From: Polyangiaceae bacterium | Lineage (GTDB): Bacteria > Myxococcota_A > Polyangia > Polyangiales > Polyangiaceae | Reading direction: 5' to 3' | Length of the DNA: 52,030 nt | Assembly (NCBI GenBank): GCA_020849655.1 | Contig: JADLFU010000093.1 | Coordinates: 1-52,030, forward strand | Shown: positions 6,330 to 51,886 of the stretch, in pieces | Position numbering within the stretch: position 1 is the stretch's first letter | Layout of the letters: every line of letters begins with the position of its first letter | Made by a program: the position numbers and the translations under genes | Notes under the pieces: model-generated | Told to the model about the DNA's origin: nothing | Database searches by the model: none | Seen by the model: the letters and a program-made list of their open reading frames with translations, nothing else

Positions 6330-7235
6330 TCATTTCTCGAAGAAGTAGAAGAACCGCGGGTGGGTGCCGAGCTCCTCCTTCAGCACGTAGACCCGGCGGT
6401 TCTCGAGCACCCAGCGGATGTCGCTGCTGGGATCGGCGAGGTTGCCGAACACGCGCGCGCCCGTGGGGCACGCCTCGAGGCACGCCGGGTTGCGCCCGAC
6501 GCGGGTGCGGTGCAGGCAGAAGTGGCACTTCTCGACGACGCCCTGGGGCCGCACGCGGTTCGACAGGTAGCTCTGGTCGGGGTTGATCTCCTCGGCCGGG
6601 ATCTCGGGCTTCTGCCAGTTGAACCTGCGGGCGTGGTACGGGCACGCCGCCTCGCAGTACCGGCAGCCGATGCACCAGTCGTAGTCGACGACGACGATGC
6701 CGTCGGGCTCCTTCCACGTGGCCTGCACCGGGCAGACGGTGACGCACGGCGCGTTGTCGCACTGCTGACACTGCACGGGCAGGTAGTACTTGCCCGGCGC
6801 GGGGACCGCGTGCTCGTAGGTGGCGTCGCCCCGTTCCATGTCGAACGATCCTTGCTCCATCTCGAGCACGCGGATGTACGAATTGTTGGTCGTGCGATCG
6901 TGGTTGTTCTCCACGTGGCAGGCCTCGGCGCACTTGCGGCAGCCGATGCAGACCGAGAGGTTCAGCGCGTACCCGAACTCCGCCCCCTCCAGCGGATCGG
7001 GGTCGCGGATGACGACGTCCCGCCCGTAGTCGGCCTTCGCCTTCGCCTCCAGGCGGCGGAGGATCGGCGCCAGCTCCTCCTTCGTCAGCTCGCGGTAGTG
7101 CCGCTGCAGGAACTGGTCGACCGACAGCCCCGCGGCCCACTTGCGGACGGGCGCCATCGCGTAGGCGAAGGCCGACGCGCCGAGCGTCGCCCCGAGCACC
7201 TTCAGCGCCACGCGCCGCTTCTGCGGCTCATCCAT
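6330..7235 (-). CDS. Four-cluster ferredoxin subunit (NrfC/HybA/DmsB type), Tat-exported
   Basis: 301 residues. The N-terminus has a twin-arginine type signal (QKRRVALKVLGA) and a hydrophobic stretch. Sixteen Cys form four [4Fe-4S] sites: 96/99/102/106, 156/159/164/168, 188/191/194/198 and 237/240/252/256. This is the standard ladder of iron-sulfur subunits that pair with NrfD membrane proteins. The start is the ATG at 7235, with AAGGAGG six bases upstream; that ribosome site lies inside the end of the cytochrome gene, which overlaps by 8 bases. Inferred job: take electrons from the NrfD subunit and pass them to the tetraheme cytochrome and NapB. Confidence 0.9.
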   Translation of the reverse strand: MDEPQKRRVALKVLGATLGASAFAYAMAPVRKWAAGLSVDQFLQRHYRELTKEELAPILRRLEAKAKADYGRDVVIRDPDPLEGAEFGYALNLSVCIGCRKCAEACHVENNHDRTTNNSYIRVLEMEQGSFDMERGDATYEHAVPAPGKYYLPVQCQQCDNAPCVTVCPVQATWKEPDGIVVVDYDWCIGCRYCEAACPYHARRFNWQKPEIPAEEINPDQSYLSNRVRPQGVVEKCHFCLHRTRVGRNPACLEACPTGARVFGNLADPSSDIRWVLENRRVYVLKEELGTHPRFFYFFEK

Positions 7236-28119: not shown

Positions 28120-28464
28120 TCACTTCGCGGGCGGCGCCCCCGGGAACGGGAACCCCGACGGGATCGGGAACCCGGGCGGCATCGCCGAGGGCATCACCGT
28201 GGGGAACCCCGCGGGGAACGGGAACGGCGACGCCGCGGTCGGCTGCGGCTGCGCGGTCGGCTGCGGCTGCGGCTGGTAGGGTTGCGGCTGCGGCTGCGGC
28301 TGGCCCTGGTACGGCTGAGGCTGCTGCTGGTAGCCGGGCTGCTGCTGGTAGTACCCGGGCTGCTGCTGGTACTGCTGGGGCTGCTGCTGCTGCGGCGAGT
28401 CGCGGTAGCACGCGGCGACGGCGACGAGGCAGAACGAGGCGACGGCGATCAGGCTCTTTTTCAT
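28120..28464 (-). CDS. Pro/Gln-rich lipoprotein
   Basis: 114 residues. A lipobox (VAVAAC) is followed directly by a mature chain made of Gln, Pro and Tyr (QQPGYYQQQPGYQQQPQPY) and a C-terminal Pro/Phe stretch (FPFPAGFP, GFPFPGAPP). The Gln/Pro/Tyr units repeat with a period of 6-7 residues. The only Cys is the lipidated one. Such chains probably stay disordered and may span the periplasm or bind peptidoglycan. A TAACCT element lies 12 bases before the ATG. It is divergent from the MNIO gene; the 127-base gap shows no other gene. Confidence 0.75.
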   Translation of the reverse strand: MKKSLIAVASFCLVAVAACYRDSPQQQQPQQYQQQPGYYQQQPGYQQQPQPYQGQPQPQPQPYQPQPQPTAQPQPTAASPFPFPAGFPTVMPSAMPPGFPIPSGFPFPGAPPAK

Positions 28465-28591
28465 GCGAACTCTCGGAGGTTAGCGTCTTTGACGGCGGCG
28501 CCGCGAGTTCGATGCCACGCGCGCGGCCGTTTGTCGACGGCGGCTTGATCTGGGCCAGGGCGGGCGCGCGGCGCTCGTGCGAGGGTGGCGC

Positions 28592-29422
28592 ATGCCTCAG
28601 CGTGTCCCGGACCTCGGCGTCGGCGTCGGCCTGCGCGTGCCGCACTACCGACGCGTGGTCGACGAGCGCCCGAAGGTCGACTGGTTCGAGTGCATCAGCG
28701 AGAACTTCATGGTCGACGGCGGCAAGCCGCTCCACTTCCTCGACGCCGTCCGCGAGACGTACCCCGTCATCCTGCACGGCGTGTCGATGAACCTCGGCGG
28801 CGCCGATCCGCTCGATCCCGCGCACCTCGCGAAGCTGAAGGCCCTCGTGCGCCGGGTCGAGCCGGCGTGGGCGAGCGACCACCTCTGCTGGAGCGCCGGC
28901 GGCGGCCACCACCTGCACGATCTGCTGCCGCTGCCGATGACCCTCGAGGTCGCGCGGCACGTCGCCCGGCGGGTGCGCCAGGTAGAGGACACGCTCGAGG
29001 TGCCGTTCGCGATCGAGAACGTGTCGTCCTACATGACGTTCCACGACGACGAGCTCTCCGAGTGGGAGTTCGTCAGCGAGGTCGTCGAGGCGGCCGACTG
29101 CGGCCTCTTGCTCGACGTGAACAACGTGTTCGTCTCCGCGTTCAACCACGGGTTCGACGCGCGCGCGTACCTCGACGGCGTGCCGCACGAGCGGGTGTTC
29201 CAGATGCACCTGGCGGGGCACACCGACGCGGGCACGCACCTGCTCGACACGCACGACCACCCGGTGCGCGACGAGGTCTGGGAGCTCTACCGCCACGCGT
29301 GCCGCCGCGTGGGCAGGCGCGCGACGTCGATCGAGCGCGACGATCACATCCCCGAGCTCGAGGAGCTGCTCGCCGAGGCTGAGATCGTCCGCCGGCTGCG
29401 CGACGAGGAGGCGCCGCGATGA
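28592..29422 (+). CDS. Multinuclear non-heme iron oxidase (MNIO, DUF692; BufB/HvfB/TglH/MbnB family)
   Basis: 276 residues (family usually 270-300). The metal-site blocks of the DUF692 TIM barrel are complete: GLRVPHY (13-19), LHGVSMNLG (His62), SDHLCW (His97), ENVSSYM (142-148), DVNNVFVSAFNHG (175-187), HLAGH (206-210), DTHDHPV (219-225) and ERDDHIP (248-254). Known members oxidise Cys or Asp side chains in small ribosomal peptides (methanobactin, 3-thiaglutamate, bufferin and Hvf copper-binding peptides). The start is the ATG at 28592 with GAGGG upstream. It is coupled by ATGA to a DUF2063 gene, the standard partner, so a bufferin/Hvf-like role is likely; no precursor gene is seen beside it. 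Confidence 0.92.
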   Translation: MPQRVPDLGVGVGLRVPHYRRVVDERPKVDWFECISENFMVDGGKPLHFLDAVRETYPVILHGVSMNLGGADPLDPAHLAKLKALVRRVEPAWASDHLCWSAGGGHHLHDLLPLPMTLEVARHVARRVRQVEDTLEVPFAIENVSSYMTFHDDELSEWEFVSEVVEAADCGLLLDVNNVFVSAFNHGFDARAYLDGVPHERVFQMHLAGHTDAGTHLLDTHDHPVRDEVWELYRHACRRVGRRATSIERDDHIPELEELLAEAEIVRRLRDEEAPR

Positions 29423-30216
29423 AGCGCCTCGCGGAGCTGCAGCGGGAGCTGTCGGCGGCGCTGCGCTCGCCGAGGCCAATCTGGCAAGACGACGGCACGC
29501 GGGCGCTCGCAGACCGCGTCGTGCGTGGGCAGCCGCGCCTGTCGGCAGCGCGGCAGCTCGAGCTGTACCGCGAGCAGTTCTTCTTCCGCCACCTCGACGC
29601 CGTCGCCGAGGACTTCCCTGCGCTGGTCGAGGCGCTCGGGTGGGACGCGTTCGAGGAGGTGACGACGGCGTACCTCGCCGCGCACCCGCCGACGTCGTTC
29701 AGCCTGCGCGATCTCGCCGCGCGGCTGCCCGATTTTCTGGAGGGGCGCGCCGCGCCCGCAGCGGTCGACCTCGCTCGGCTCGAGTGGGCGCTCGTCGAGG
29801 CGTTCGACGCCGCCGACGCGCCGCCGATCGACGCCGCGAAGGTGACCGCCGCGGGCGACGCGCTCGACCGCGCGACGATCACGCTCGACGCGAGCCTCAC
29901 CTTGCTGGCGCTCGGCGCGCCGGTGCACGAGGTGCGCGAGCGGCTCGCGGGGGGCGAGGCGACCGCGCTGCCCGAGGCGCGCCCGACGTGGCTCGTCGTG
30001 TACAGGCGCGAGCTCGACCTCGACTGGCGCGAGGTGCCCCCGCTCGCGCACGCGGCGCTCTCGGCGCTCTCGCGCGGGTTGCCGCTCTCCGACGCGCTCG
30101 ACGAGGTCGCGGCGCGGTGCGCGCCCGACGAGCTCGGGACGCTCGAGGCGGAGATCGGCGGGTGGTTCCGCCAGTGGGTCGCCGACGGGTGGATCCGCGA
30201 CGTGACGCTGCCGTGA
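29419..30216 (+). CDS. DUF2063 partner protein of the MNIO enzyme (BufC/HvfC type)
   Basis: 265 residues. The N-terminal half has the DUF2063 pattern: LQRELSAALR, ARQLELYREQFFFRHLDAVAEDFPALVEALG and FEEVTTAYLAAHPPTSFSLRDLAARLPDFL. The C-terminal half is a second helical/beta domain ending in WFRQWVADGWI. In known systems this protein binds the leader of the precursor peptide and presents it to the MNIO enzyme. Its start overlaps the MNIO stop, so the two are made together. Older annotations call it a putative DNA-binding protein, for which nothing here argues. It converges with the epimerase gene 12 bases on. Confidence 0.88.
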   Translation: MKRLAELQRELSAALRSPRPIWQDDGTRALADRVVRGQPRLSAARQLELYREQFFFRHLDAVAEDFPALVEALGWDAFEEVTTAYLAAHPPTSFSLRDLAARLPDFLEGRAAPAAVDLARLEWALVEAFDAADAPPIDAAKVTAAGDALDRATITLDASLTLLALGAPVHEVRERLAGGEATALPEARPTWLVVYRRELDLDWREVPPLAHAALSALSRGLPLSDALDEVAARCAPDELGTLEAEIGGWFRQWVADGWIRDVTLP

Positions 30217-51187: not shown

Positions 51188-51886
51188 TCACGGCAGGACG
51201 CAGCTGAAGCCCGTGCAGGTGTTGAGCCCCTTGCAGGTGTGCTCGGTGTAGACCTGGGTGGTCTGATCGTACGACATGCCCTTGCAAGAGTTGGCGCCGC
51301 CGCAGTGGGGGTGAATCTCGATCTTGCCGCCGAGCGCGTCGCACATCGCGGTGAACTTCTCGAGGGTCATGTCGGGATCGTCCACGGTCTTCGTGATGAC
51401 CGGCGGCGCGCCCGCCGCCCCGGCCGAGCCCGCCATGCCCGCTCCCGCGGCGCCCGCCCCTGATGCGCCGCTCGCGCCTGATGCGCCGCTCGCGCCCGCA
51501 TCTCCGCCCGCGCCTGATGCGCCGCTCGCGCCCGACGCTCCGCTCGCGCCTGATGCGCCGCTCGCGCCCGCATCCCCGCCCGCGCCCGATGCGCCGCTCG
51601 CGCCTGCGTCGCCTCCTGCGCCCGCGCCGCTCGCGCCCGCGAGACCGCCCGACCCTGCCGCCCCCGACGCGCCGCCCACCTCGCCGCCGGCCGATCCGCT
51701 GGTGCCCGCGGCGCCCGTGCCCCCCGCGCCCGAGGAGGCACCCGCGGCGCCCGCGGCCGCGCCGGGAGCGCCCGTCGTCGCCGACTGCCCGGAGTCTGCC
51801 GCGCAGGCCCCTGCGCCGAGCAGGCCCGCGAGCGCGGCGGCGAGCAGGGAGCGTTGGGCCAGGTGGGGAGCGTCGTCGGTCGACAT
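51188..51886 (-). CDS. Lipoprotein with GASGAS spacer and six-Cys C-terminal tail
   Basis: 232 residues from the ATG at 51886; an upstream extension has no signal. Lipobox LLGAGAC. Residues about 35-170 are almost only Gly, Ala and Ser with some Asp (SGASGAGGDAGASGAS). The last 55 residues form a compact Cys-rich domain with Cys at 182, 195, 201, 218, 224 and 229, containing HPHCGGANSCKG and HTCKGLNTCTGFSC. The CKG...C spacing recalls precursor peptides of MNIO systems and other metal-binding secreted peptides; an MNIO gene pair lies 21 kb away. That link is inference. It converges with the ABC gene six bases away. Confidence 0.78.
   Translation of the reverse strand: MSTDDAPHLAQRSLLAAALAGLLGAGACAADSGQSATTGAPGAAAGAAGASSGAGGTGAAGTSGSAGGEVGGASGAAGSGGLAGASGAGAGGDAGASGASGAGGDAGASGASGASGASGASGASGAGGDAGASGASGASGASGAGAAGAGMAGSAGAAGAPPVITKTVDDPDMTLEKFTAMCDALGGKIEIHPHCGGANSCKGMSYDQTTQVYTEHTCKGLNTCTGFSCVLP
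51455..51640 (-). repeat. 18-bp tandem repeats encoding GASGAS
   Basis: Imperfect 18-base units (plus-strand form CCGCTCGCGCCTGATGCG) recur, with some units changed to CCGCCCGCGCCC. They encode the Gly/Ala/Ser spacer of the Cys-tailed lipoprotein. Length variation between strains is likely. Confidence 0.75.

Follow-up and report, generated by a model that had tools for sequence, protein, structure and literature searches.

Introduction

Bufferins bind copper, and recognition of their precursors by BufB and BufC is believed to involve the signal peptide (PMC12452194). PME1-dependent MNIOs install 5-thiooxazoles on Cys residues, a chemistry that has been established for the Buf_EGKCG, oxazolin and fontiphorin class (PMC13097082). 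Lipoprotein signal peptides are predicted in ~16% of Buf2 precursors (PMC12452194), and RiPP-lipoproteins have been described for another MNIO subfamily (PMC12636315). RiPP mining usually seeks precursors beside the enzyme. A survey published in 2025 found sizeable fractions of bufferin precursors to be unlinked to MNIO genes and suggested that these are modified from another locus (PMC12452194).

Here we describe a locus in a Polyangiaceae genome (G000; 6.56 Mb in 307 contigs, 97% complete), of which one whole contig of 52,030 nucleotides (C93), hereafter the window, was analysed. The locus and the precursor that we assign to it resemble Bufferin 2 (BufA2 or Buf_6/12Cys) in having a BufB-type MNIO, a DUF2063 partner and a precursor with a CxGxNxC core, and resemble the captophorins of the Buf_EGKCG, oxazolin and fontiphorin class in the MNIO and PME1 arrangement and in precursors rich in Cys, Lys and Gly. 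It appears to be a copper-peptide system of the ordinary kind, the parts of which have become separated, with the matching peptide gene standing alone elsewhere in the genome.

Table 1. Features of the locus and candidate precursors (positions refer to the window unless a contig is named)
Feature	Position	Strand	Basis
BufB-type MNIO (DUF692) maturase, 276 aa	28592..29422	+	PF05114 and NF050167 (BufB)
DUF2063 and RRE-like partner (BufC / PME type 1), 265 aa	29419..30216	+	PF09836 and AlphaFold model
Divergent Pro/Gln-rich lipoprotein, 114 aa, judged non-substrate	28120..28464	-	homologues elsewhere without MNIO nearby
Stand-alone precursor of 232 aa, a lipoprotein with a lipobox, a GASGASG linker and the core HCGGANSCKGMSYDQTTQVYTEHTCKGLNTCTGFSCVLP at its C-terminus	51188..51886	-	gene calling
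Stand-alone precursor, 134 aa, BufA2-like lipoprotein	C37:66173-66577	-	A1 profile, BufA2, lipobox by eye

Results

The MNIO of the window matches PF05114 (365 bits, E=2e-109) and belongs to BufB, with 363.8 bits against the NCBIfam model NF050167 (cut-off 310), while its score against the HvfB model (263 bits) lies below the cut-off of 360; its sequence matches in the PDB are 3bww, TglH (8hci) and MbnB (7dz9). The start codon of the DUF2063 gene overlaps the MNIO stop, and the encoded protein scores over the cut-off of PF09836 (E=1.5e-17), with an NGO1945_C-like C-terminus at 22.8 bits, below that model's cut-off of 27. An AlphaFold model of the protein, built with 23 sequences (pLDDT 93), resembles both TglI, as seen in the TglHI holoenzyme (8hi7, E=1e-5), and NGO1945 (3dee, E=3e-5), and gives a weak RRE match to the leader-binding protein TbiB1. 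As modelled, the protein is a two-domain PME type 1 partner of the kind described in PMC12452194.

Among 56 orthologues of the family, 58 MNIO columns are conserved in at least 97% of the sequences, and the window MNIO keeps all but two of them. The window's genome forms a supported clade with the congener G038 and with G018 (SH-aLRT 99 in a quick version of the tree), and 55 of the 58 columns are unchanged in all three members, the exceptions being S153D, T220S (G018 only) and W249R (window only). No candidate metal ligand is altered in the clade, ligand roles being assigned from the family. Between the congeners pN/pS is 0.46 for the MNIO and 0.63 for the DUF2063 gene, and both are under purifying selection. 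By analogy with its family, the pair is an intact one of the sort that would normally turn a small Cys-rich peptide into a copper-binding one.

The 127 bp between the divergent lipoprotein gene and the MNIO were read and hold no precursor-like gene, and the 3' neighbour of the pair is a convergent SDR epimerase ~12 bp away. No precursor directly upstream of the MNIO, in the order of bufABC, was found in the window, in G038 or in G018; no DoxX gene was seen adjoining the pair, and the DUF2282 precursor of Bufferin 1 (PF10048) has zero matches in the genome. An ORF of 92 aa with several Cys (28512-28790, plus strand) shares part of its length with the MNIO gene in a different frame; by eye it lacks a signal peptide, and we regard it as a chance ORF. 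The same gap is present in G038, an independent assembly whose MNIO is 76% identical, and the MNIO of G018 (66% identical) likewise has no linked precursor. Since the gap is repeated in both of these genomes, which form a supported clade with that of the window, we take it to be real and inherited rather than an assembly error. In G018 the MNIO and the DUF2063 protein are encoded in one frame of 572 aa (C473, locus L042, 8454-10172), a natural fusion of maturase and partner.

An earlier note on this DNA, made from the letters alone, had described a complete DUF692 metal site, a coupled DUF2063 partner at these positions, a convergent epimerase downstream and no precursor gene beside the pair, and our analysis bears out each of these points. 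It overlooked the Cys-rich precursor farther along the same window on the minus strand (Table 1).

The neighbourhood comparison that the note had proposed covered 58 further genomes of the family, in each of which the region upstream of the pair was read. In 52 of the 58 a short Cys-rich precursor with a lipobox is encoded immediately before the pair, in the same orientation, at a median distance of ~114 bp (51 by script and G088, whose precursor has two mature Cys, by eye; G080 is listed twice in the tally). A CxGxNxC core is present at 40 of the loci with an upstream precursor, and most of the upstream precursors carry CCKGKNECKGKGGC...CAGKNECKGKGGC (alignment A1); about a dozen loci have a simpler precursor of the SCSG/KSSC type. 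Of 33 BufB relatives in other lineages, most are preceded by a CxGxNxCKG precursor. A lipoprotein form of bufferin thus seems to be common across the family, whose members have large genomes. Two ways in which the note could have been wrong, namely a standard precursor just beyond an assembly error and homologues that always stand without a peptide partner, are both contradicted, the first by the gap in an independent genome and the second by these upstream partners.

The six genomes without an upstream precursor are G038, G018, G007, G009, G052 and G029, the contig of the last ending 242 bp upstream of the orthologue. As G007, G009 and G052 nest apart, among precursor-bearing genomes in the quick tree, the separation of enzyme and precursor probably arose at least twice.

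When alignment A1 is used as a profile, the window's genome gives a single hit, at C37:66176-66367 (E=7e-14); G038 has one strong hit, on contig C137 (E=4e-11). The C37 ORF (MQPRRPLLLAALAGLVAGAAGC...KHACAGMNQCRGQGGCRTQQHACKGKNDCKGRGGCSH) has a signal peptide with a lipobox, read by eye, and two CxGxNxCxGxGxC cores, with the six-Cys core reading HACAGMNQCRGQGGCRTQQHACKGKNDCKGRGGC; it scores 40.2 bits (E=3e-10) against the NCBIfam model BufA2 (NF050166), below the cut-off of 60. As a DNA pattern CxGxNxCxGxGxC occurs twice in the genome, both times in this ORF, and 0 times in the reversed control. The C37 and C137 precursors are syntenic, each adjoining greA and a sulfatase gene, and no MNIO lies beside either in the stretch read; they are 50% identical over their full length and agree at 26 of 34 core residues. 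Contig membership was assigned by binning and by synteny in one congener. Stand-alone precursors of the same type occur in G007, G009 and G052 too, and a profile search of G018 (81% complete) found none of the C37 type.

In a set of 108 genomes the precursor tends to be found together with the enzyme (48/60 against 19/48; Fisher p=2e-5), and in the part of the apparent exceptions that was checked many have a precursor of the simpler type or an MNIO with a lower score. The promoter words common to the MNIO and the C37 precursor amount to only one 10-mer and some 9-mers, in DNA rich in GC, and we do not consider them meaningful. Stand-alone precursors are also present in genomes with a linked one, for example at G055:C3 (L182) 6423-6884, and this co-presence suggests that one maturase may serve several precursors.

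A second MNIO in the same genome, on contig C183, likewise has no adjoining precursor and is preceded by two genes of other function. The stand-alone precursor of the window, which ends CDALGGKIEIHPHCGGANSCKGMSYDQTTQVYTEHTCKGLNTCTGFSCVLP, matches neither the NCBIfam models (BufA2 included) nor the Pfam precursor models, and shares 36-59% identity with precursors that immediately precede C183-type MNIOs. Its type of core was found in 13 of 108 genomes, comprising all 12 with a C183-type MNIO (Fisher p=5e-15; p=1e-7 when collapsed by genus; the C183-type MNIO of G038 is counted though broken across two contigs) and G083, where the core adjoins an MNIO. In G038 this precursor is again stand-alone and syntenic, with a core identity of 94%. 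Sequence type and co-occurrence together suggest that it is the partner of the C183 MNIO. The two MNIOs lack a neighbouring precursor and the two precursors stand alone, so both systems are split in the genus. In relatives, precursors of the C183 type (L189, L191 and L192) have after the core a C-terminal CxxCH region, cytochrome c-like by eye, which is absent from the window copy.

The genome also encodes a complete further system on contig C94 (L038, 6846-8807), in which genes for an MNIO and a DUF2063-domain protein stand in tandem with that of a lipoprotein precursor containing SCSAGSCSAGSCSGH, and a fourth MNIO of 438 aa on contig C88 (L040, 5343-8393), adjoining a TIGR04222-like membrane protein (below the model cut-off) that ends GCGGGGGCGGGGGCS.

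Discussion

The pair in the window is probably a working bufferin (captophorin) maturase whose precursor is encoded at an unlinked locus, C37, and is modified in trans. We propose C37 as the partner because its type of precursor adjoins this enzyme in most relatives; the pairing is drawn from type and phylogeny. Very probably the enzyme's kind of substrate has not been lost but is encoded elsewhere. The suggestion of the earlier note that the enzyme has a remote precursor as its substrate is therefore supported, the type that neighbours its orthologues being encoded alone on C37 and in the congener.

On the model of its family, the RRE of the partner would bind the signal peptide or leader of the precursor in the cytoplasm, and the multi-iron MNIO would oxidize core Cys with O2 to 5-thiooxazoles. 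The peptide would then be exported and lipidated at the lipobox Cys, and in this form could buffer copper at the envelope. The chemistry, the copper binding and the lipidation are all carried over from the family, as is every step past the identity of the genes.

Against the assignment to C37 count the lack of a hit in G018, which belongs to the same clade, and the full-length identity of just 50% between the C37 and C137 precursors, although their cores agree better. Whether the pairing is one-to-one is unsure, since the C183 MNIO could act on C37 and since stand-alone and adjacent precursors coexist elsewhere. By type, C37 would serve the window MNIO, and the precursor encoded in the window would serve the C183 MNIO; crosstalk is possible. 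The C183 MNIO as sole partner of C37 is less likely, as its orthologues adjoin precursors of the other type. Taken further, the bufferin systems of the genus might be trans-acting circuits in which two maturase pairs (C93 and C183) and two lipoprotein precursors (C37 and that of the window) are all unlinked, the maturases may be shared and the core of the window precursor defines a precursor family of its own; we offer this wider view tentatively.

It is unlikely that the pair instead modifies the precursor of its own contig, alone or along with C37, as one maturase acting on several remote precursors. This precursor lies only 21 kb away and is an intact lipoprotein with a Cys-rich C-terminal core, and genomes such as G055 have stand-alone precursors beside adjacent ones; against this stand the likeness of its core to the neighbours of C183-type MNIOs, its presence together with such an MNIO in 12 of 12 genomes and the lack of a match to BufA2.

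Two further readings are improbable to a similar degree. The pair could be a decaying relic kept after loss of the precursor, as the adjacent precursor is indeed lost in the clade and conservation between the congeners is 93% for the neighbouring mscS compared with 76% for the MNIO and 67% for DUF2063. Against decay, the conserved MNIO positions and candidate ligands are retained across the clade as described above, pN/pS is below 1, and neither reading frame is interrupted in any of the three genomes, the two being joined in frame in G018. The substrate could also be some other, unrecognized protein, a reading that draws on the ~4,000 main-cluster MNIOs without a recognized precursor in a published survey (PMC12452194), but here a precursor of the expected type exists in the genome.

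Least credible is the proposal of the earlier note that the divergent lipoprotein is modified on a non-Cys residue: although no divergent lipoprotein gene lies closer to the pair in any of the three clade members and other MNIO subfamilies do modify non-Cys residues (PMC12452194), genes for an HTH regulator and an AHSA1 protein intervene in G038, 19 similar loci elsewhere have no MNIO within flanks of ~1.5 kb (homology searches with this low-complexity protein being unspecific), and the neighbours of the BufB subfamily are Cys-rich precursors. Besides the lipobox Cys that was noted, the lipoprotein contains a second one, in the signal peptide, so that the mature protein does, as the note implied, have the lipobox Cys alone.

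Stand-alone bufferin precursors and lipoprotein forms of Buf2 are already known; what is added here is pairing by orthologue neighbourhoods, in which the neighbours of its orthologues and gene co-occurrence served to match a maturase lacking an adjacent precursor with a remote one, an approach that could assign substrates to many MNIOs listed without a precursor. The locus differs from Bufferin 2 in its unlinked precursor, in the BufA2 match of C37 (40 bits against a cut-off of 60) and in the apparent absence of a DoxX gene next to the pair. It differs from the Buf_EGKCG class in its CxGxNxCxGxGxC core, the EGKCG repeats being characteristic of that class, and from the stand-alone precursors of the survey in that candidate halves of two systems are identified in one genus.
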